A stretch of 64,000 bases of DNA from an uncultured Bacteroidales bacterium. GTDB taxonomy: Bacteria > Bacteroidota > Bacteroidia > Bacteroidales > Paludibacteraceae. The notes beneath the pieces were generated by a model that did no database searches, had not been told where the DNA came from, and worked only from the letters and a program-made list of their open reading frames with translations. This document shows positions 4,484 to 63,791 of the stretch, in pieces. Position 1 is the first letter of the stretch, and every line of letters starts with the position of its first letter. Location: the NCBI GenBank assembly GCA_900319645.1, contig ONPG01000009.1, positions 33,865 through 97,864 on the forward strand, given 5' to 3'. The translations under genes and the position numbers were made by a program.

Positions 4484-4548
4484 CACCGTCAAACGGAGAA
4501 TGCCCAAAATCCACAAAAGAGTAGGCACAATAAACAATCAAATTTATC

Positions 4549-5848: not shown

Positions 5849-6124
5849 ATGACATATACATTTGTAGCAAGCCGGATCTCCGGCAATGGGAATGCCATTT
5901 TTCCGGACAAACTGATCATCGATGACGACAAAGTGACCTATTACAAAGGCAAAATCATCGGCTATGATCAATCGGTTATCATGCGTGAACGCATCGGTTC
6001 TGTCAATATTTCCATGCACTTGCTCTTTGGCAACATTGTCATTGAAAGCAAAGGCAGCCAAACCATTCATGCAGAAGGATTCACACGCTCCGATGCCAAA
6101 CGGATTTTGGAATTATTGTCATAA
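5849..6124 (+). CDS. Small PH-domain-like protein, 91 aa
   Basis: A short all-beta protein ending in a helix (TRSDAKRILELLS), with the pattern of a bacterial pleckstrin-homology fold: seven short strands such as NAIFPDKLIIDDDKVTYY and GNIVIESKG, then the capping helix. Proteins of this kind usually bind other proteins or lipids; no catalytic residues are visible. Its stop codon directly abuts the ATG of the next gene at 6125, so translation is coupled with the HTH-like/kinase pair. Confidence 0.55.
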   Translation: MTYTFVASRISGNGNAIFPDKLIIDDDKVTYYKGKIIGYDQSVIMRERIGSVNISMHLLFGNIVIESKGSQTIHAEGFTRSDAKRILELLS

Positions 6125-8673: not shown

Positions 8674-8704
8674 GTTTCGTCCATTTTGCCGGATACCATC
8701 CGGC
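8674..8704 (-). repeat. 31-nt tagged hairpin element, copy 1 of 3
   Basis: Read on the minus strand: GCCGGAT-GGT-ATCCGGC, a perfect 7-3-7 hairpin, followed by AAAATGGACGAAAC. Two more copies of this hairpin plus GGACGAAAC tag lie at 62684-62714 and 62726-62756, next to the paralog of the gene at 9102. Confidence 0.7.
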
Positions 8705-8709
8705 CATCT

Positions 8710-8733
8710 ATCCGCCAAGTTTGGCGGATTTTT
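8710..8733 (+). terminator. Palindromic terminator (9-2-9)
   Basis: ATCCGCCAA-GT-TTGGCGGAT is a perfect palindrome followed by TTTTTCC. It is a good intrinsic terminator, and its sequence pattern (ATC-nn-CCAA / TTGG-nn-GAT) is shared with the two palindromes at 8812 and 8843 downstream. Confidence 0.6.
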
Positions 8734-8762
8734 CCTTTTTCTCACTTTCTCCGTTCAAAACA

Positions 8763-8794
8763 TTTGCATATTCCAAAATTTTTTTGTACCTTTG
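8763..8794 (+). promoter_or_regulatory. Promoter of the first paralog gene
   Basis: TTTG at 8763-8766 and TACCTTTG at 8787-8794, 20 nt apart, with CAC after the -7 element. Transcription should start near 8801, giving a leader of about 300 nt before the ATG at 9102. Confidence 0.7.
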
Positions 8795-8811
8795 CACCCG
8801 CAAATCCCTGC

Positions 8812-8862
8812 ATCGACCAATTTTGGTCGATTCTCACATTTCATCGACCAATTTTGGTCGAT
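8812..8862 (+). repeat. Two identical palindromes 31 bp apart in the leader
   Basis: ATCGACCAA-TT-TTGGTCGAT occurs at 8812-8831 and 8843-8862. Start-to-start distance is 31 bp, close to three helical turns. They lie just after the predicted transcription start, so they could be operators or RNA hairpins. Confidence 0.8.
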
Positions 8863-8942
8863 TATCACGCCAAATAGGGTAGAGCACCCATTCACCTCCT
8901 CGGACGCAAACCGAGTTTTTTTCGACACTTTTAGCCTCTAAA

Positions 8943-8997
8943 AGGGGGTGATAAGGGGGTGATTACGGGGTGATAAGGGGGAGATTAGGAGGATATT
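8943..8997 (+). repeat. 11-bp tandem repeat array, five units
   Basis: Units AGGGGGTGATA, AGGGGGTGATT, ACGGGGTGATA, AGGGGGAGATT and AGGAGGATATT follow each other without gaps. In the reverse sense each starts with ATCAC or a close variant. Two further 11-bp arrays with the same start, at 40411-40454 and 63341-63384, occur in the window. Confidence 0.8.
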
Positions 8998-9040
8998 CAG
9001 CCGAGAGCAACGGGAGGATGAACCAAGCAAAGAAAGCTTA

Positions 9041-9066
9041 TCTGACATTCTGTCAGAACGACAGAA
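9041..9066 (+). repeat. Overlapping alternative hairpins
   Basis: TCTGACA-TTC-TGTCAGA (9041-9057) is a perfect 7-3-7 palindrome. TTCTGTC-AGAAC-GACAGAA (9048-9066) is a perfect hairpin sharing its right part. The two are mutually exclusive, as in an attenuator-type switch, 36 nt before the ATG at 9102. Confidence 0.6.
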
Positions 9067-9101
9067 ATATAAATAAATTACTGCAAAAAACATGCCGAAA
9101 T

Positions 9102-9599
9102 ATGTCTAAAATCAAGTTTTACGCTCCTGTTCATGAAATGAACGGAGAGTTTGAAAAAGGAAGCGGAATCATCATGCGAAAGAAAAAATTCCGCGCACCC
9201 AACGGAGCTGTTCTCAAAGAAGGCGTCCAGGAGTCCTACAAGATCGTCAACCCGCGCGATTTTACCAAGAATCCGCAGAAAGACAGAGAGTTAGCCAATA
9301 CGCTGATCTTCGCCGAAACCAAACATCGGTCCTCTGAAATCATCCGTTCCGAGAGATATTCTGACGAAGAAATGGCGGCGATGACGCCCGAAGAACGCGC
9401 TCGTGTTCTGGAACTCAGGCAACAACTTGAGCAGTTCCGAAACCGTTTCTACGCACAGTTCAAAAATCCGGATCCCGAAGCGCCGTTCGAGAAATCGTTA
9501 CGCCCGGGAGCTTCCAAACTCAAACGCAAGCAATACGCCAAACTCGACAATTTCATTCAGGCGATCATTCGTCAGCAACTGACAAACGCCCAACCATAA
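9102..9599 (+). CDS. Basic protein of unknown function, paralog 1 (165 aa)
   Basis: Homologous over its whole length to the gene at 62785-63285. Shared blocks include MSK at the start, KK[FY]R near residue 29, GAVL, VQE[SA]Y, PRDF-KNP-K-ELAN, a PEER/PAEER segment and PDP-AP. The middle (about 85-125) is a charged helical region. There is no signal peptide or membrane segment and the protein is basic, so nucleic-acid binding is possible but unproven. The frame is open from about 8970, but MSK at 9102 matches the paralog start. It has its own promoter and a 300-nt leader full of palindromes and 11-bp repeats; a further nested hairpin follows the stop. I do not recognise the family. Confidence 0.7.
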   Translation: MSKIKFYAPVHEMNGEFEKGSGIIMRKKKFRAPNGAVLKEGVQESYKIVNPRDFTKNPQKDRELANTLIFAETKHRSSEIIRSERYSDEEMAAMTPEERARVLELRQQLEQFRNRFYAQFKNPDPEAPFEKSLRPGASKLKRKQYAKLDNFIQAIIRQQLTNAQP

Positions 9600-9605
9600 A
9601 CGTGT

Positions 9606-9657
9606 ATGGAATGGCGGTCTGCCAAACTGGCAGAAAAAACGCTCATTCCATCTGCCA
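9606..9657. repeat. Nested hairpin after paralog 1
   Basis: Outer arms ATGGAATG (9606-9613) and CATTCCAT (9644-9651) enclose a perfect 7-3-7 palindrome TCTGCCA-AAC-TGGCAGA (9618-9634). A further TCTGCCA half-copy follows at 9651-9657. It may end the paralog transcript or act on the lon promoter 20-40 nt downstream. Confidence 0.65.
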
Positions 9658-9788: not shown

Positions 9789-12167
9789 ATGGCAAAGAAA
9801 ATCGAAGATATAGAAGAAGTGAAGCAATACGAGGTATTGCCTATCCGTAACACCGTGCTCTTTCCAGGAGTCTTGATGCCGGTGGCTGTCTCGCGCAAGT
9901 CAAGTCTCAAACTGGTCAAGGCGGCGCACCGTGCTAAAAATCAGATTGTCGTCCTTACTCAGCGCGACAGTTCGGTCTCAGATCCGGAACCATCCGACCT
10001 CTATTCGCTCGGAACGCTTGCGCGGGTTCTGCAGATTGTGCCGGTTCCCGAACTCGGATCCGGAGAACATGTCATGGCCATTTTGGAAGGCGTCAAACGT
10101 ATTCAAGCTACTGATTTCCAAATTGATGATGACGGCAAGATATATGCCGAAGTGCAATCGCTGGAAGAAGAAATGCCGCTCAAAAACGACAAGCAGTTTA
10201 CTGCTACCCACGATTCCATCCGCGAACTCATCCAGCGTATCCTCAACCACCGCGAGAACCCGCCGGTTGACTTGCAGATGACCCTGCGGTCGATCAATAA
10301 CGGACCTACCCTAATCAACTATATTTGTGCTACTTACGACAATCTTTCGATGGAGAAAAAGATCGACTTGCTCTTCATCGACTCTTTGGCGGAAAGAGCT
10401 ACGGCCCTCTTGGCGATCCTCGAGAAGGACAACGAAATGCTGAATATCAAAGCCGATATACGCAAGCGTACGCATGAGGCGATGGACAAACAGCAACGTG
10501 AGTATTTCCTCCAGCAGGAAATCGAAACCATCAAACAGGATCTGGGAGACACGGGAGCAGAGACCATCAAAGAACTGCGTGAGCGTGCGGAGAAAAAACT
10601 ATGGCCCGAATCGGTAGAGAAAGTCTTTGAGAAAGAGTTGCTCAAACTGGAGCGGATGACGACCCATTCGCCCGACTACTCCACCCAACTGACCTATCTC
10701 GAGACCATGCTTGAACTGCCTTGGAACATCTATTCCGAGGATAATTTCGACATGCAGCACGCCCAGGAAATCCTGAACCGCGACCACTATGGATTGGATA
10801 AAGTGAAGTCCCGTATTGTCGAATACCTGGCGGTACAGCGCCAACTCAGCCTTCGCAGCGAAAAAGACAAAAAAGAACACCCCGTCAAGTCGCCTATTCT
10901 CTGTCTCTACGGACCTCCGGGCGTCGGCAAAACGAGTCTCGGAAAGAGCGTGGCGGAAGCGCTGGGACGCAAGTACGCCCGTGTCTCGCTTGGAGGATTG
11001 CACGATGAAGCAGAGATACGAGGCCACCGCCGTACATACATTGGAGCACTGCCCGGACGCATCATCGACAGTATTAAGAAATGCGGAACCTCCAACCCGG
11101 TCTTCGTCCTCGACGAGATAGACAAAATCGGAGCGGACTACAAGGGCGATCCTACTTCTGCCCTTCTCGAAGTGCTTGACCCTGAGCAGAATAGCACTTT
11201 CCACGACAATTTCCTGGATGTGGATTACGACTTGAGTCGTGTGCTCTTTATCGCTACGGCGAACACGCTGGACACGATCCCGAGACCGCTGCTCGACCGA
11301 ATGGAGCTCATCGAAATGACCGGTTATCTGCAGGAAGAGAAAGAGGAAATTGCCAAACGTCACTTGATTCCCAAAGAACTGGCGAACCACGGACTCAAGC
11401 CCTCGCAACTCAAACTGAAGAAGGAAATCCTCGCGCATATTATTGATGATTACACGCGCGAGTCCGGAGTGCGTTCGCTGGAGCGACAGATTGCTACCAT
11501 ATGCCGCAAGATTGATACCAAACTGGCTCTCGGCGAGGAATACAACGTATCCGTGACGCTCGATGACCTGCGCTCTTATCTCGGACAAGCACGTTTCAGC
11601 CGCGACAGTTGGGAAACCAACAAATACGTCGGAGTCGTCACCGGCTTGGCTTGGACTCAAGTGGGAGGCGAGATCCTCTTTATCGAGACCAGCCTCAGTC
11701 AAAGCAAATCGCCTTCCCTGACCTTGACCGGTAATCTTGGCGATGTGATGAAGGAATCAGCTACGCTTGCTTTAGGCTACGTCAAGGCGCACGCCAAGCA
11801 GTTCGGCATCAAACCAGACGTCTTTGAGAAAACCGCCGTACATATTCACGTGCCGGAAGGAGCTATTCCTAAAGATGGTCCGAGTGCAGGTATCACCATG
11901 ACTACAGCCTTGGTGAGTGCGTTCACAGGAAGGCTTGTCAAACCGCGTATCGCTATGACCGGTGAGATGACACTCCGTGGAAAAGTGTTGCCGATAGGCG
12001 GAGTAAAAGAAAAACTGCTTGCCGCCAAACGGGCTGGAATAACGGATATAATCCTATGCGAAGACAACCGCAAGGACGTAGTGGAAATTCCTGAGATCTA
12101 CCTCAAAGGTCTGCAATTCCACTTCGTGCACGACATCAGCGAAGTAATCAAAGAAGCGCTCCAATAA
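9789..12167 (+). CDS. lon: ATP-dependent protease Lon, 792 aa
   Basis: Cytoplasmic AAA+ serine protease that degrades misfolded and regulatory proteins. Domains in order: N-terminal substrate-binding domain (about 10-205, starting YEVLPIRNTVLFPGV), helical linker, AAA+ ATPase with Walker A GPPGVGKT (375-382) and Walker B FVLDEIDK (about 440), sensor region with FIATAN, and the C-terminal protease domain. The catalytic serine sits in DGPSAG (S699) and the lysine in GGVKEKLLAA (K740). Length is normal for bacterial Lon. It stands alone, between the hairpin-rich paralog 1 zone and a 12-bp terminator that overlaps its stop codon. Confidence 0.97.
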   Translation: MAKKIEDIEEVKQYEVLPIRNTVLFPGVLMPVAVSRKSSLKLVKAAHRAKNQIVVLTQRDSSVSDPEPSDLYSLGTLARVLQIVPVPELGSGEHVMAILEGVKRIQATDFQIDDDGKIYAEVQSLEEEMPLKNDKQFTATHDSIRELIQRILNHRENPPVDLQMTLRSINNGPTLINYICATYDNLSMEKKIDLLFIDSLAERATALLAILEKDNEMLNIKADIRKRTHEAMDKQQREYFLQQEIETIKQDLGDTGAETIKELRERAEKKLWPESVEKVFEKELLKLERMTTHSPDYSTQLTYLETMLELPWNIYSEDNFDMQHAQEILNRDHYGLDKVKSRIVEYLAVQRQLSLRSEKDKKEHPVKSPILCLYGPPGVGKTSLGKSVAEALGRKYARVSLGGLHDEAEIRGHRRTYIGALPGRIIDSIKKCGTSNPVFVLDEIDKIGADYKGDPTSALLEVLDPEQNSTFHDNFLDVDYDLSRVLFIATANTLDTIPRPLLDRMELIEMTGYLQEEKEEIAKRHLIPKELANHGLKPSQLKLKKEILAHIIDDYTRESGVRSLERQIATICRKIDTKLALGEEYNVSVTLDDLRSYLGQARFSRDSWETNKYVGVVTGLAWTQVGGEILFIETSLSQSKSPSLTLTGNLGDVMKESATLALGYVKAHAKQFGIKPDVFEKTAVHIHVPEGAIPKDGPSAGITMTTALVSAFTGRLVKPRIAMTGEMTLRGKVLPIGGVKEKLLAAKRAGITDIILCEDNRKDVVEIPEIYLKGLQFHFVHDISEVIKEALQ

Positions 12168-16424: not shown

Positions 16425-16814
16425 CTACTCTTCTTCCTCGTAATAACCATGCTCGATGCCGAATTGCAGTTCGGCATCTTGTATTAGTTGGACCTGCACG
16501 GCGCTTATCGCACGACCTTCTTCGCGGCAAGCATTGAGCACATAGTTGAGTTGCTCTGTTTCGTCCACGTCTCCGTCCAGATACTCCATCTCGCCGCTCT
16601 CCGGATCCTCACGTAAGAGTCCCTGCTCCTCCAGATAGTCGTCCATCATATCCAGTACAAACAGCACATCATCCTGTGTGAGCGTATAGCCCGAAGGATG
16701 TTCTTCTGTTGCTGCACTTGTCTTGTCTACTTCCGGGATGGTTTTGAGTATAAACTCCACTAATTCCCGCTCTTCTTGCTCCATCAACGCGAGCTCAATC
16801 GTATTATTTTCCAT
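16425..16814 (-). CDS. Hypothetical acidic protein, 129 aa
   Basis: A small, strongly acidic, mostly helical cytoplasmic protein (MEQEERELVEFILKTIPEVD near the start, C-terminal HGYYEEEE). No domain is recognised; similar short acidic proteins occur as conserved unknowns in Bacteroidales. It converges on the AsmA-like gene with a 24-nt gap and diverges from cdsA; its promoter physically overlaps that of cdsA at 16830-16865. Confidence 0.65.
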   Translation of the reverse strand: MENNTIELALMEQEERELVEFILKTIPEVDKTSAATEEHPSGYTLTQDDVLFVLDMMDDYLEEQGLLREDPESGEMEYLDGDVDETEQLNYVLNACREEGRAISAVQVQLIQDAELQFGIEHGYYEEEE

Positions 16815-39124: not shown

Positions 39125-40252
39125 TTATTCGTTTTTCAGTTGAATTACCCAGCAATCAGGGAAGAGGGATTTGAGTTCGTTCTGTTTGTTTTGTGCGTCT
39201 TCCTTGGTCGGGAAAGGTCCGACATAGTATTTATACCAGTTACCAATTTGCAAGCAACTGCATTTTTGGCCTTTCAGTTTCGGGTCGGAAGGCTCGAGAG
39301 CATTCCGCGAGGCGCATACCTGAACGCCATAGAGTGTTTGCGCAGCAGGAGCCGGAACAGGGGCAGAGACCTCTTCTGCCGGTTTCGTTTCGGGTTGCTG
39401 AACCGGTTTGTCCTCGGGTTGCTGAAGTTGTTTCTCCTTAGATTGTTGAATCGTTTTCTCCTCGGCCAGGACAGGTTCGGAGGTGATTTTCTCCACGCGT
39501 GTTCTTTGCTTGTGGGTATAGGAACCGAAAGCATCCACCAAAGCTTGCGCCATCTGGTCAATCGTGCCTTTTTTGTTGAGGAATTTCTCCTCGTCCGGGT
39601 TGGAAATGAATCCCATCTCAAAAAGGATAGAAGGACACGCCGTTTTCAGGAGCACCCAGAAAGCAGCTTGTCTCACGCCACGGTCGCCACGGTTGAGCGA
39701 GCCGACAAAATTGTTCTGGACGTATGTGGCAAACTGAAGCGATTGATCCATGTACGAGTTCTGCATGAGTTCGAACATGATATACGAGTCGATGGAGTTC
39801 GGGTCAAAGCCCTGATAAGTCGTTTTGTAGTCCGCCTCGAGCTTCATCACGGCATTCTCGCGCATGGCAACATCGAGGTTTTTCTCCATCTTGTCGGTTC
39901 CGAGAATAAACGTCTCAACGCCGTGAGCAGCTTTGCTTTCCGCCGAGTTAGTGTGGATGGAAATGAAGAGGTCTGCGTTGTTCTTGTTGGCAATGTCTGC
40001 GCGCGTCTGGAGAGGAATGAAGACATCAGTCGAACGGGTATAAACGACCTTGACGTCCGGATATTGTTCCTGAACCAATTCGCCGACTTTGAGAGCCAGA
40101 GAAAGGTTGAGGTCTTTCTCCTGTGAAGTCTTCCCCACGGCTCCTGCATCTTTGCCTCCATGCCCGGGGTCAATAACCAGGGTATAGGACTTGTCAGCCC
40201 ATACGGACAGGCTCATCAGCAAAGCCAAAACAATATAGAAACGCTTACGCAT
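39125..40252 (-). CDS. N-acetylmuramoyl-L-alanine amidase with SPOR domain, 375 aa
   Basis: Cleaves the bond between muramic acid and the peptide in peptidoglycan, for example at division. Signal peptide (1-19), Amidase_3 domain about 20-230 with the zinc motifs TLVIDPGHGGKDAG (His), SIHTNSAES (His) and the catalytic LFEMGFISNPDEE (Glu). A glutamate/proline-rich linker (240-300, repeats of QQPE-type words) leads to a C-terminal SPOR domain (about 305-375, YGVQVCASRNAL) that binds denuded glycan. Own promoter at 40279-40310; the MCE gene follows. Confidence 0.93.
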   Translation of the reverse strand: MRKRFYIVLALLMSLSVWADKSYTLVIDPGHGGKDAGAVGKTSQEKDLNLSLALKVGELVQEQYPDVKVVYTRSTDVFIPLQTRADIANKNNADLFISIHTNSAESKAAHGVETFILGTDKMEKNLDVAMRENAVMKLEADYKTTYQGFDPNSIDSYIMFELMQNSYMDQSLQFATYVQNNFVGSLNRGDRGVRQAAFWVLLKTACPSILFEMGFISNPDEEKFLNKKGTIDQMAQALVDAFGSYTHKQRTRVEKITSEPVLAEEKTIQQSKEKQLQQPEDKPVQQPETKPAEEVSAPVPAPAAQTLYGVQVCASRNALEPSDPKLKGQKCSCLQIGNWYKYYVGPFPTKEDAQNKQNELKSLFPDCWVIQLKNE

Positions 40253-40310: not shown

Positions 40311-40410
40311 TAAAATCGTCCTTTCCTATGCTTTTTTTCATTTCTTGTGTTTACAATTTCGTTCAGAAATGGGGATTTTGTGGTATTATCCTCATGGTTC
40401 TCTCATACGA

Positions 40411-40454
40411 ATCACGCTATAATAACGCTATAATCACGCTATAATCACGCTATT
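40411..40454. repeat. 11-bp tandem repeat array, four units
   Basis: ATCACGCTATA, ATAACGCTATA, ATCACGCTATA and ATCACGCTATT follow each other exactly. The array lies between the divergent amidase and rel promoters. The unit start AT[C/A]AC is shared with the arrays at 8943 and 63341. Confidence 0.85.
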
Positions 40455-40519
40455 TTTACCAACAAAAAGCCTCACTTCTGCCATTCCGTCAATCTTTTTT
40501 GAAAAAAAATACGCGCGCA

Positions 40520-40551: not shown

Positions 40552-40661
40552 CACGGTATTTTGACTGACTATGCCCCAAAGACAGAAAACAAGAGGGTGT
40601 GATAACATTCCAAAGACAAAAAAAGGCGGGTGTAAGTACAGAGAAAAGAATACTAAAGGCT

Positions 40662-42905
40662 ATGCAAAAGAGTGCATTTACACAGGAAGAAGAAGCGATG
40701 ATCCAACGCGAGTTCCAAGCGTTGTTGGACGATTACGCGCATACCCCTCACCGTCAGAAAACGGAACTGATCACGCACGCGTTCAATTTTGCACACAAAG
40801 CCCATTACGGCGTGCGCAGGTTGAGCGGAGAACCGTATATCCTTCATCCGATCGCCGTCGCGCGCATCTGCGTGAGCGAAATAGGTTTGGGAAGTACGAG
40901 TATTTGTTCGGCATTGCTGCACGACGTGGTGGAGGATACCGACTACACGGTGGAGGATATTGCAGGTCTGTTTGGCGACAAGATCGCACAGATCGTTTCG
41001 GGTCTGACGAAGATCAGCGGCGGCGTGTTTGGCAGCAAAGCCAGCGAACAAGCGGAGAACTTCCGCAAACTACTGCTGACCATTTCGGACGACATCCGCG
41101 TCGTGCTGATCAAGATAGCCGACCGTCTTCACAACATGCGCACCTTGGGCGCTCAGCCGAAAGACAAACAATACAAGATAGCCGGCGAGACACAGTATAT
41201 CTACGCTCCGCTGGCTCATCGTCTGGGTCTTTTCCCGATAAAGACAGAGTTGGAGGACCTGAGTTTCAAATATGAGCATCCGGAGACGTGGGAAGAGATA
41301 CACGCCAAACTGGAAGCTGTTCGCGGCAAGCAGTTGGAGAGTTTCGAGCAGTTTGCCGAACCTATCCGCGAGCGTCTGGAGAGTATGGGATACACGTTCA
41401 CTTTGAAAGCCCGTATCAAATCGGTCTATTCGATTTGGAAGAAGATGGTTCAAAAACAGATTCCTTTTGAAGACGTGTATGACCTGCTGGCTGTGCGTAT
41501 TGTGTTCACTCCGAACGAGTCGATGAGCGAGAAAGACCAGTGTTGGATGATTTACTCCGCTATCACGGAGATCTATCGTCCTCATCCGGAGCGCATCCGC
41601 GACTGGATCTCCTCGCCCAAAGCAAACGGCTATGAGGCGTTGCACGTGACGGTCATGGGCAAGGACGGCGAATGGGTGGAAGTGCAGATCCGTACGGACC
41701 GTATGCACGAGATAGCCGAACGCGGCTATGCAGCCCATTGGAAGTACAAAACCGGCGAATCGGACGACGGAGAGCTGGACAAGTGGCTTCGCGAGATAAA
41801 AGAGATTCTTGAACATCCGGAGAAAGATGCGATGGAGTTTCTGGGCACCTTCAAGTTGAACCTGTTTGCACAGGAGGTGTTTGTCTTCACACCGAAAGGC
41901 GAAGTGATGACGATGCCTTTAGGCGCAACGGCTCTGGACTTTGCTTTTCTACTCCACTCCGAGCTCGGCGAACATTGTATAGGCGCGAAAGTGAACCATG
42001 CCCTCGTGCCTCTTTCCTACAAACTGAAAGGTGGCGACCAAGTAGAGATCCTCACTTCGTCAAGCCAACATCCGCAGGAGGATTGGCTCGAGATAGCCAC
42101 TACCGCCAAAGCCCGTAACTGCCTTAACCAGTATTTCCGCCGCGAGGAAAGAAGATACATGAAACACGGCGAACAACTGGTGGACGACGCCATCCAGATC
42201 AACCCGAAACTGCAAGGGAACAAAGATATGGTGGTAGCCCGCATGACGAACTACTACAATCTGGAGAACCCGCAGGCGTTGTATTTGCAGATAGGTCAGG
42301 GATTCATTCGTCTGGACAACATCGAGGAAGTGGTGTTCCCCAAGCAGTCGTGGTGGAGCCATGTGCCGTTCATAGGCAGAAAACAACCGGAGATCAGCCT
42401 TCCTCAGCAGGAAGAGAAAGAGATCGTCAAGCCGCAGAAAGGCAAGCCGCATGCGATTGTTCTTACTGACGAGAACTTAGGCAAGGAATACAAACTGAGC
42501 ACCTGCTGCCATCCTATTCCGGGCGACGAAGTGTTAGGATTCCTGGACGAAGACGGACAGATGCATATCCACAAGATTGACTGCCCGGAAGCCAACCTCC
42601 TGAAGACCAGTTTCGGCAAACGTATCTATTCCGCCACATGGAACACCCACCGCGTACAATCTTTTGTGGAGACCATCGAGTTCAAGGGCATAGACAAGTT
42701 CGGCGTGTTTATCCAGGTGTTGCAGACCATCACAACCGAGTTCCACATCAATATGCGCCAGATCAACGTCAGCAGCGACGACGGCATCTTCAAAGGAACG
42801 ATGGAGATATACGTCTATGACCGCAAAGAGCTGGACGAACTGCTGAAAGCAATCCGCAAGATTGACGACATCAAAGAAGTCAAACGCGTGGTCAACGAGA
42901 TTTAA
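40662..42905 (+). CDS. RelA/SpoT-type (p)ppGpp synthetase/hydrolase, 747 aa
   Basis: Makes and degrades the stringent-response alarmone. The HD hydrolase domain (about 30-180) has ALLHDVVEDTDYTVEDI and IADRLHNMRTLG intact, so hydrolysis is expected. The synthetase domain (about 235-345) has YDLLAVRIVF, NGYEALHVTV and EVQIRTDRMHEIAERGYAAH. TGS (about 400-460, FVFTPKGEVMTMPLGATALD), a zinc-finger-like/CC region and a C-terminal ACT domain (about 675-747) follow. The frame is open to a GTG at 40599, but MQKSAFTQEEEAMI is typical of Bacteroidota Rel enzymes. Bifunctional Rel is the usual form in this phylum. Confidence 0.93.
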   Translation: MQKSAFTQEEEAMIQREFQALLDDYAHTPHRQKTELITHAFNFAHKAHYGVRRLSGEPYILHPIAVARICVSEIGLGSTSICSALLHDVVEDTDYTVEDIAGLFGDKIAQIVSGLTKISGGVFGSKASEQAENFRKLLLTISDDIRVVLIKIADRLHNMRTLGAQPKDKQYKIAGETQYIYAPLAHRLGLFPIKTELEDLSFKYEHPETWEEIHAKLEAVRGKQLESFEQFAEPIRERLESMGYTFTLKARIKSVYSIWKKMVQKQIPFEDVYDLLAVRIVFTPNESMSEKDQCWMIYSAITEIYRPHPERIRDWISSPKANGYEALHVTVMGKDGEWVEVQIRTDRMHEIAERGYAAHWKYKTGESDDGELDKWLREIKEILEHPEKDAMEFLGTFKLNLFAQEVFVFTPKGEVMTMPLGATALDFAFLLHSELGEHCIGAKVNHALVPLSYKLKGGDQVEILTSSSQHPQEDWLEIATTAKARNCLNQYFRREERRYMKHGEQLVDDAIQINPKLQGNKDMVVARMTNYYNLENPQALYLQIGQGFIRLDNIEEVVFPKQSWWSHVPFIGRKQPEISLPQQEEKEIVKPQKGKPHAIVLTDENLGKEYKLSTCCHPIPGDEVLGFLDEDGQMHIHKIDCPEANLLKTSFGKRIYSATWNTHRVQSFVETIEFKGIDKFGVFIQVLQTITTEFHINMRQINVSSDDGIFKGTMEIYVYDRKELDELLKAIRKIDDIKEVKRVVNEI

Positions 42906-53739: not shown

Positions 53740-53841
53740 ATGAAAGTGAATATGGAAGAATTGATCGTCAGAGAGAGTCGCAGCGAAGACCTTATTAAAA
53801 AGGGGGCTTTTATAAAAAAAAGAAGATACAAAGATGTGTGA
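53740..53841 (+). CDS. Possible very small basic protein, 33 aa
   Basis: An ATG at 53740 opens a short frame with MEELIVRESRSEDLIKKGAF in the middle and a lysine/arginine-rich end (KKRRYKDV). No family recognised and no clear promoter. It might be a remnant, since the neighbouring minus-strand region is decayed. Confidence 0.2.
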   Translation: MKVNMEELIVRESRSEDLIKKGAFIKKRRYKDV

Positions 53842-53860
53842 AATAATCGTGCCCCCGCGG

Positions 53861-54110
53861 CTAAGAATCAGTGAATGTGTGAATGAAGGGCGAGCAGAAA
53901 CGTGTTTTCTTAAAATAATACGGATCGTTGTACCCTAGTGCATTTAGGATTTCCTTTAACAAACGAGGCGATTTTACTTGTTGCAAAAATGGTTCAATCT
54001 TATCCCAAGTTAACGCAGGGTCTAAAGAATATGTCTCAATCACTTGCTGCCAACTTACCGCCGACTTACTGACTACTTGCTGACCACTAACTGAATTGAA
54101 TATTACTCTA
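53861..54110 (-). pseudogene. Remnant of a winged-helix-like C-terminal segment
   Basis: The minus strand reads ALTWDKIEPFLQQVKSPRLL, then a helical ALGYNDPYYFKKTRF stretch that looks like the C-terminal winged-helix end of AlbA-type ATP-binding or Fic-associated proteins. The first 20 or so residues of the open frame (SGQQVVSKSAVSWQQV) come from a 20-bp DNA repeat. No start codon is convincing. It probably belongs to the same decayed locus as 54111-54533. Confidence 0.4.
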
Positions 54111-62626: not shown

Positions 62627-62683
62627 GTTTTAATGAAGAAATGTGTAGAATTTCTGCATTTGGTATGCAGAATATTATTTGAT

Positions 62684-62756
62684 GCCGGATGATATCTCGG
62701 CAAATGGACGAAACCTCTTTTTGGTCCCGGATGGTATCTCGGGAAAGGGACGAAAC
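62684..62756 (+). repeat. 31-nt tagged hairpin element, copies 2 and 3
   Basis: Copy 2 (62684-62714): GCCGGAT-GAT-ATC(T)CGGC then AAATGGACGAAAC. Copy 3 (62726-62756): CCCGGAT-GGT-ATC(T)CGGG then AAAGGGACGAAAC. The closing base pair changes from G-C to C-G on both sides. Copy 1 is at 8674-8704 next to the paralog gene. Confidence 0.75.
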
Positions 62757-62784: not shown

Positions 62785-63285
62785 CTACTTTTTTTGCTCC
62801 ATCAAAATCATTGCACGCAGGAAGGCGGGAAGGGAGTAATAATGGCGACGCTGTGGCTTGGCGGAGTTGGGATTGTAGTCCGGTGAGGATTTGGGTAACA
62901 ACGGCGCTTGCGGGTCGGGTGCGCCTTTTAACTGCTTCTCGAAGCGGGTTTGGTAGGAAGCGAGTTGTGCAAGGAGTTGTTCTGCTGTTTCGCGTTCTTC
63001 CGCAGGCAGCACGGCCAGTTCGTCGGATGTCAGTTTGCCGGCTTTCAAAAGTTCAAGTGAACGGCGGTGCGCTTCGCCAAAACGAGTCATGTTGGCGAGC
63101 TCAGCCCCTTTAGGCGGATTCTTCTTAAAGTCACGAGGGAAGTCCACTACATAGGCTTCCTGCACGCAGGTATGCAGCACTGCGCCGGTTTCTGAGCGGT
63201 ATTTCTTCTGGCGGAAGATAGTGCCGTTTTTTGAGTACTTGCCGTGAAGTTCGGCAACGGGGGATTCAAGTAAGGCTTTTGACAT
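62785..63285 (-). CDS. Basic protein of unknown function, paralog 2 (166 aa)
   Basis: Homologous to the protein at 9102-9599 from MSK to the PDP-AP motif: FRQKKYRSETGAVL, CVQEAYVVDFPRDFKKNPPK, GAELANMTRFGEAHRRSLEL and PAEERETAEQ align with the first copy. The C-terminal end is more divergent (QRRHYYSLPAFLRAMIL) but keeps a basic-aromatic pattern. The upstream frame is open, but MSK at 63285 fits the paralog start and the promoter at 63404-63435. The leader of about 110 nt consists largely of an 11-bp array (63341-63384). Two tagged hairpins follow the gene. Not recognised as a known family. Confidence 0.7.
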   Translation of the reverse strand: MSKALLESPVAELHGKYSKNGTIFRQKKYRSETGAVLHTCVQEAYVVDFPRDFKKNPPKGAELANMTRFGEAHRRSLELLKAGKLTSDELAVLPAEERETAEQLLAQLASYQTRFEKQLKGAPDPQAPLLPKSSPDYNPNSAKPQRRHYYSLPAFLRAMILMEQKK

Positions 63286-63340
63286 ATAATATGGTGTGTT
63301 TGTTTGTTCGTTATGGTATCCTCCTGTTTTCAGCTGCTTA

Positions 63341-63384
63341 ATAACGCGAGAATATCGCGGGAATAACGCGGAAATCACGCGGAA
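63341..63384. repeat. 11-bp tandem repeat array, four units
   Basis: ATAACGCGAGA, ATATCGCGGGA, ATAACGCGGAA and ATCACGCGGAA follow each other without gaps, between the predicted transcription start and the ATG of paralog 2. Compare 8943-8997 and 40411-40454. Confidence 0.85.
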
Positions 63385-63403
63385 ATAAAAGCAAAACAGA
63401 GTG

Positions 63404-63435
63404 CAAAGGTACGAAATTATTTTGATATGTGCAAG
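63404..63435 (-). promoter_or_regulatory. Promoter of paralog 2
   Basis: Minus-strand TACCTTTG (63404-63411) and a TTG -33 element inside 63432-63435, 20 nt apart. Confidence 0.65.
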
Positions 63436-63501: not shown

Positions 63502-63791
63502 GGAATAATATTCCTAATAACTACCAAGAAAGGGAAACAGCGGCAAATATGCCGCCGAACAGAACAACCGGCATAATATGCCGGACAATAAACATAGACG
63601 CGATGCTGATGCGTAGCATAGCAGACGAATGACAACCCCGCATGCCATGCGGGACAATTGACGAAAGAAGAAAGAGAACGCGCTAACGGAGGTAGCGCGC
63701 ACAGGACACCGCTATGTCCAGCCGATGAGAGAAGAGAGAGAGAGCCGCCCGAAAAGGCGGCTCTCTCTTTGATCAGCCATGTATGGCTGAT
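63502..63791. other. Hairpin island: nine palindromes in 290 bp
   Basis: From left: GGAAT-AAT-ATTCC (63502-63514), GCGGCA-AATA-TGCCGC (63540-63555), CCGGCAT-AAT-ATGCCGG (63568-63584), ATGCT/AGCAT (63603-63619), CCCGCAT-GCC-ATGCGGG (63637-63653), CGCGCTA/TAGCGCG (63679-63699), GGACA/TGTCC (63704-63719), a 13-bp terminator stem (63737-63768) and ATCAGCCAT-GT-ATGGCTGAT (63772-63791). Two of the 7-3-7 hairpins are each preceded by ACAAC-like sequence and followed by ACAAT. No gene is present; the region is between mutB's 3' end and the paralog 2 promoter. Confidence 0.75.
63737..63770. terminator. Perfect 13-bp terminator stem in the hairpin island
   Basis: AGAGAGAGCCGCC (63737-63749) pairs perfectly with GGCGGCTCTCTCT (63756-63768) around CGAAAA and is followed by TT on the plus strand, TCTCTTC on the minus strand. 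It may terminate mutB. Confidence 0.7.

Follow-up and report, generated by a model that had tools for sequence, protein, structure and literature searches.

In REPIN/RAYT systems, as set out in the parts of the published accounts drawn on here, many short, non-autonomous intergenic repeats are associated with a cognate gene that is flanked by the same repeat, and repeat and protein co-vary (PMC3116915, PMC8266576). A second point of reference is ParR/parC of plasmid R1, in which, according to the part of the account cited, a protein is paired with short repeats in direct orientation next to the gene that encodes it (PMC4949242). As far as those parts extend, REPIN/RAYT is, by analogy, the nearest counterpart for the population structure of the system described here (PMC3116915) and ParR/parC for its putative direct-repeat binding (PMC4949242), but the defining features of both fail, and the system is therefore filed as neither.

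The window, that is, the entire stretch of 64,000 nucleotides analyzed, comes from an assembly of 2.64 Mb that is 84% complete and contains two members of one protein family: gene 1, at 9102–9599 on the forward strand (165 residues, pI 9.83), shortly downstream of which lon begins (9789–12167; named by Pfam), and gene 2, at 62785–63285 on the reverse strand (166 residues, pI 9.56). The preliminary description of this DNA had called the two genes homologous, and they are (E 1e-37), 40% of their 161 aligned positions being identical; the 11-bp tandem array that it reported in each leader is likewise present. The array of gene 1 (8940–8999, forward strand) is built from the units GTGATAAGGGG and GTGATTACGGG with variants and has the left end AAAAGGGG, and that of gene 2 (63340–63386, reverse strand) contains the units CCGCGTGATTT, CCGCGTTATTC, and CCGCGATATTC. 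Upstream of each gene lies, by sequence, a candidate TAccTTTG box (8787–8794, forward strand, for gene 1 and 63404–63411, reverse strand, for gene 2), which we take to be the Bacteroidetes-type −7 box. A terminator-like hairpin with a T run (8899–8922, forward strand) separates the box of gene 1 from its array, and comparable terminator-like features were seen by eye in the related leaders L045, L051, L052, L055, and L056. At Rfam gathering scores the window holds only a tRNA and a DUF805b RNA, neither at the arrays; the latter, a cis-regulatory RNA, is located at 4493–4527 (39.2 bits, cut-off 35.6).

As in REPIN/RAYT, the flank of the cognate gene contains the repeat, of which many copies are dispersed (three flavors in this genome and one in the related genome G009), but the second window gene has no dispersed copies of its word, the repeat is a tandem direct 11-bp array rather than a palindrome, the family protein has no HUH (Y1) transposase signature, and its gene belongs to a multi-copy family that is diversifying. 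Four of the five array strands tested fold no better than their shuffles, L165 being the one that folds better (z −2.0), and this counts against a hairpin substrate. The likeness to ParR/parC is that 11-bp direct repeats adjoin the gene of a putative binding protein. The ParR fold is ribbon-helix-helix, whereas the fold predicted for the family combines a beta hairpin with long helices and has no PDB match at E 0.001, and the family arrays are chromosome-wide and come in several words. The array copies that lack a gene (solos) resemble MITEs in being short, non-autonomous intergenic copies that are present or absent between species, but inspection of the aligned solos by eye revealed no terminal inverted repeats or target duplications, the relatives being too diverged for exact empty sites, and the gene-bearing copy has no transposase family match. 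Neither the aligned solos nor the relatives compared yielded a target-site duplication or an exact solo junction. Literature searches in a collection with few subscription papers listed none on such arrays.

We favor, with somewhat better than even confidence, the interpretation that the window genes belong to a two-part repeat system, of which one part is the family, made up of small basic proteins whose genes each lie behind their own 11-bp-period leader array, and the other consists of gene-less array copies dispersed in intergenic DNA. Judged from sequence, this system is characterized by the constant period of 11, the match of words between genes and solos (for three of four flavors here and for one in G009), copying, presence or absence at a single site, confinement to one genus among the genomes searched, and a strong tendency of the solos to lie upstream of a promoter-like box and point at it. 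A length of 11 bp is close to one turn of B-DNA, so that proteins reading the units would be aligned along one face of the helix. The target of each protein would be the double-stranded DNA of its own array, read at one unit per helical turn; binding to the leader array may autoregulate the gene, and the solos would be additional binding sites copied about the genome, non-autonomous and either dependent on the cognate protein or acted on by it, the arrays possibly being copied by a host enzyme. A protein with its own array would then form a pair of the REP/RAYT kind, but one that has neither palindrome nor transposase. The preliminary description had noted a likeness to REP/RAYT on account of the hairpins around the genes and had suggested that the protein may bind, spread, or process them; the likeness and the idea of binding or spreading pointed in the right direction by way of the wrong repeat, since it is the 11-bp leader array, not the hairpins, that tracks the family. 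More tentatively, and at rather less than an even chance, the system may represent a class of selfish elements built on helical-repeat iterons, in which an array-binding protein and its 11-bp array spread together without a transposase of their own, the words diversify, the copies settle upstream of promoters, and several lineages compete within one genome.

The proteins of the family are basic, about 165 residues long, and fast-evolving. A profile built from 36 of them (A1) matched the source genome 11 times at E ≤ 0.001, corresponding to ten loci, one of which is split in two pieces, and it detected the family in 24 of 25 genomes of the same genus and in none of 16 others. Across the order, 3 of 393 genomes matched, every one of the same genus and the source genome among them, and the three genomes in that set from other genera of the same taxonomic family gave no match. 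Among the genomes searched, the family is confined to one genus, of rumen Bacteroidales/Paludibacteraceae MAGs; the contigs of 60 named loci in relatives are labeled Bacteroidales or Paludibacteraceae, many of them ruminant-gut, the single exception being Lachnospiraceae.

All 36 aligned proteins have a pI above 7 (7.9–10.5, median 9.8), and the invariant residues of the family are Met1, Arg26, Arg52, Pro58, Glu63, Arg115, and Gln119, with no invariant His. Neither window protein scores above any curated cut-off in Pfam or NCBIfam, PADLOC returned nothing for the two, profile A1 found no match at E 1 among PDB sequences, and no relative emerged from phages and plasmids searched with the window protein or from IMG/VR searched with alignment A2. 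The statement in the preliminary description that the protein has no transposase motif is borne out by searches of Pfam, NCBIfam, and PHROG, which gave no transposase match for the family, and by the absence of His from the invariant residues. Weak and scattered matches to CSTF_C (3 of the 36 members, best E 8.2e-5), to CHASE3 (1 of the 36, 6.6e-4), to a CII-like PHROG (1 of the 36, 0.0027), and, still more weakly than to CSTF_C and CHASE3, to other families were not used for assignment. The AlphaFold2 models are confident (pLDDT 91.7 for the gene 1 protein and 89.7 for the gene 2 protein) and consist of a beta region or beta hairpin, a pair of long helices, and a helix at the C terminus; a fold search of the PDB with both models returned nothing at E 0.001 and no named DNA-binding domain, and a viral structure library searched with the model of the first window protein gave no match at E 0.001.

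The property that unites the leaders is their period. When the best-fitting period was sought over the range 5–30, a value of 11 or 22 was obtained for 42 of 46 family leaders, a sample that includes near-identical pairs and broken copies; the other four are L060, which is cut by a contig end, L023, L041, and L083. In a second set the same periods were found in 46 of the 52 loci that have no exact match in the first, some of these being near copies of one another (54 of 60 overall), as compared with 21 of 193 control genes, of which 10 scored 11 or higher, the control stretches being 350 nt and the family stretches 350–400. Among 12 further divergent or distant members inspected by eye, about ten have a period of 11 and words that differ widely, the period not being seen in L083 and L088. 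The period is constant and the 11-mer word varies among paralogues, GTGATT being kept exactly in 48 of the 79 leaders that have a word. In a tree of these 79, read by eye, the words largely track the protein clades; GTGATTAGTAG, which occurs in two distant clades, and L122, which is unlike its clade, are exceptions, and the scripted words of L075 and L112 were taken from the wrong segment or strand. GTGATT-type arrays are present in 21 of the 25 same-genus genomes, with one match each in 2 of the 16 others, and it should be noted that the reversed pattern is not a clean null inside the genus because CTTTAGTGATT-type arrays satisfy it. In one genome (G008) the family is matched and GTGATT-type arrays are lacking; in three others (G005, G017, and G020) arrays are present, and each of the three has a single weak match to the family (E 2e-7 to 9e-9, 4e-6).

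In the source genome, a pattern of three GTGATT at 11-bp spacing with up to 3 mismatches gave 157 matches, against 16 for the reversed pattern. Among the matches listed are 44 sites, and every one was examined: two turned out to be gene leaders, to which the leader of the gene at 9102 was added by script. At least 42 solos were found, in four flavors designated ATAGC (at least 18), CATGG (at least 12), GGGG (at least 8), and ATTGG (at least 4). Each flavor has its own conserved left end, the tail often holds the 11-bp step, and the flanks are mostly unrelated, with a neighboring repeat common to some ATAGC solos; shared element ends together with mostly unrelated flanks indicate that the solos spread by copying. 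Three of the four words are carried by resident genes, at L039, at L037, and at 9102 in the window, gene 1 being the candidate partner of the GGGG flavor, whose solos lie outside its leader. No solo with the word of gene 2, and no gene for the ATTGG solos, was found in this 84% complete genome. The ATAGC pattern occurs at 20 sites in the source genome, 19 of them gene-less, and is absent from 40 other genomes. All 10 solos fetched from G009 bear the same TCGCG word as the gene leader there, and most of these solos share a left end that is longer than the one they have in common with the gene; in G016, solos with the word ATTATG are among the matches listed, and none of the four gene leaders read has that word. 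A G-quadruplex was considered and dropped; by eye, the GGGG flavor alone could form one.

The window contains one ATAGC solo (40395–40463, reverse strand), which comprises GTTGGTAAAAATAGC, four GTGATTATAGC-type units, and a diverged tail, its 3′ limit being approximate; there is no family gene with it, and its neighbors, identified by Pfam, are an amidase gene (39125–40252, reverse strand) and relA/spoT (40599–42905, forward strand). Elsewhere in the window, at 54042–54094, there is another array of 11-bp period with ACTTACTGACT-type units and no family gene recognized alongside, and a 33-codon frame at 53741–53842, ending in KKGAFIKKRRYKDV, resembles by eye the first strand of the family and may be a remnant or a chance likeness. 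A second, CCCTCCC-rich repeat was seen by eye to adjoin ATAGC solos often on their left (L163, L197, L198, L203, and L206), so the intergenic repeats of the source genome are composite. Also by eye, a solo 11-bp array with another word (ATGAGCATACG) at 6050–6095 of L037 is followed by a hairpin resembling a terminator and by two small ORFs suggestive of a toxin-antitoxin pair.

The site between the amidase gene and relA was compared among 13 species, the source and 12 relatives picked from 40 with a match; an array is present in four of them, the source included, with four different words, and in nine there is none. No exact empty-site junctions could be defined there, the relatives being too diverged, and the interval of G426, which is longer, seems by eye to contain another gene. 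A second comparison involves lon, detected in 22 of the 25 same-genus genomes. By coordinates, a family gene lies directly upstream of it in five, being of one type in G000, G021, and G022 and of a distant type in G004 and G015, where it was confirmed by sequence and the array word differs; seven other lon regions that were fetched have no family gene. At one site G002 and G004 have different family members, and the downstream 1.4 kb is 90% identical, the comparison covering the downstream side because of a contig end on the upstream side. One leader and gene are 98% identical over 430 bp between the source genome, in which the gene is broken, and G002; the close flanks are unrelated, and pieces of 81 and 65 bp also match 3–4 kb away. 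In four near-identical gene pairs the identity extends roughly from promoter to stop codon, the 3′ end of one pair being cut by a contig end.

None of 45 arrays checked lies inside a picked ORF. On the basis of crude ORF calls, the solos are distributed over divergent, convergent, and codirectional regions as 17, 7, and 17 (expected by length, 7.5, 8.9, and 24.7; p 5.6e-4), and of the codirectional ones 13 of 17 have the same orientation as the genes (p 0.049). A TAnnTTTG box is present within 260 nt downstream, in the sense of the array, of 28 of the 42 listed solos and within 260 nt upstream of 2, the expectation from 200 mononucleotide shuffles being a mean of 3.4 and a maximum of 9; the solos therefore lie upstream of promoter-like boxes and point at them, which may reflect an insertion preference or regulation. 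Regulation would fit the proposal that the family members are fast-evolving, autoregulated transcription factors and that the solos are operators of a regulon, selected upstream of promoters, with copying as a side effect, a proposal to which the preference for divergent regions and the array in the gene's own leader also lend weight. Because of the promoter-pointing bias, we rate it slightly higher, and the two-part repeat system slightly lower, than we otherwise would, but it remains unlikely, if a serious contender: solo ends are common beyond the repeats and the flanks mostly unrelated, as in copied elements, the ATAGC set is missing from 40 other genomes, and the differing words, or lack of any, across species at the amidase-relA site are unsuited to a conserved regulon.

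It is distinctly improbable that the array acts in RNA, the protein binding its own leader transcript and the solos being copied through RNA as run-off leader cDNA. Such a route would account for solos that retain the 5′ part and have no ORF and for the position of the left end that the ATAGC and CATGG gene copies share with their solos, just after the promoter box and near the expected start of transcription, but the left end common to the GGGG gene copy and its solos is about 150 bp downstream of the box, the solos lie upstream of promoter boxes and not behind them (L190 alone among those listed has a box within 40 bp upstream), and the solos of G009 mostly match each other over a longer left end than they match the gene. 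We give very little credence to the idea that the arrays are independent minisatellite-like repeats with the gene as a passenger, for although gene-less arrays occur and the ATTGG flavor has no gene found in the genome, the excess of arrays in both sets of family leaders over the controls and the largely clade-specific words argue against it.

The preliminary description had placed both genes in hairpin islands. Its hairpins around gene 1 at 8688, 8710, 8812, 8843, and 9618 are present, and one at about 9041 is also there, overlapping a hairpin scored at 9048. Around gene 2, in a scan for perfect stems of at least 6 with loops of 2–8, the cluster at 63502–63791 proved to contain six hairpins (63540, 63568, 63637, 63679, 63737, and 63772), not nine; those reported at 62684 and 62726 are imperfect and failed the scan, which gave a further one at 62652. 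The tagged 9-mer said to be shared by these two loci only, GGACGAAAC or its complement, occurs, when scored by itself, at 16558 as well as at 8674, 62706, and 62748. No other 1-kb bins of the window are as rich in hairpins as those of the two gene loci, which also rank first and second among 45 family loci tested (7 and 6 per 800 bp). Across the homologues, a first count, from which L038 was omitted and in which the window islands were partly hidden by crude ORF calls, gave 1.39 hairpins/kb beside family genes versus 1.26 in other intergenic regions (59 versus 116 regions, p 0.49), and a second gave 1.49 versus 0.83 (45 family versus 118 other genes, p 0.0498), at most a weak enrichment, so that hairpin clusters do not hold as a hallmark of the family. 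The window loci being outliers, hairpins were set aside as the main feature, and the feature that generalizes across the family is the 11-bp leader array. That the protein handles the surrounding hairpins is accordingly the least credible reading, favored by the rank of the window loci and opposed by the little or no enrichment elsewhere and the few hairpins flanking L037 and L039. One palindrome, GCCGGAT..ATCCGGC (8688–8704), was found in five contexts among fetched loci of the same genome, including the solo loci L203 and L206, and is thus a dispersed repeat in its own right.

The two-part system of small basic proteins and 11-bp arrays looks like a new kind of partnership between a spreading repeat and a protein. 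If this is true, it would be a non-palindromic counterpart of REPINs in which specificity resides in the 11-bp word and in which the period stays fixed while word and protein change together. It would thereby offer many natural, distinct protein-DNA pairs for the study of how specificity changes and would constitute a new source of sequence turnover beside promoters.
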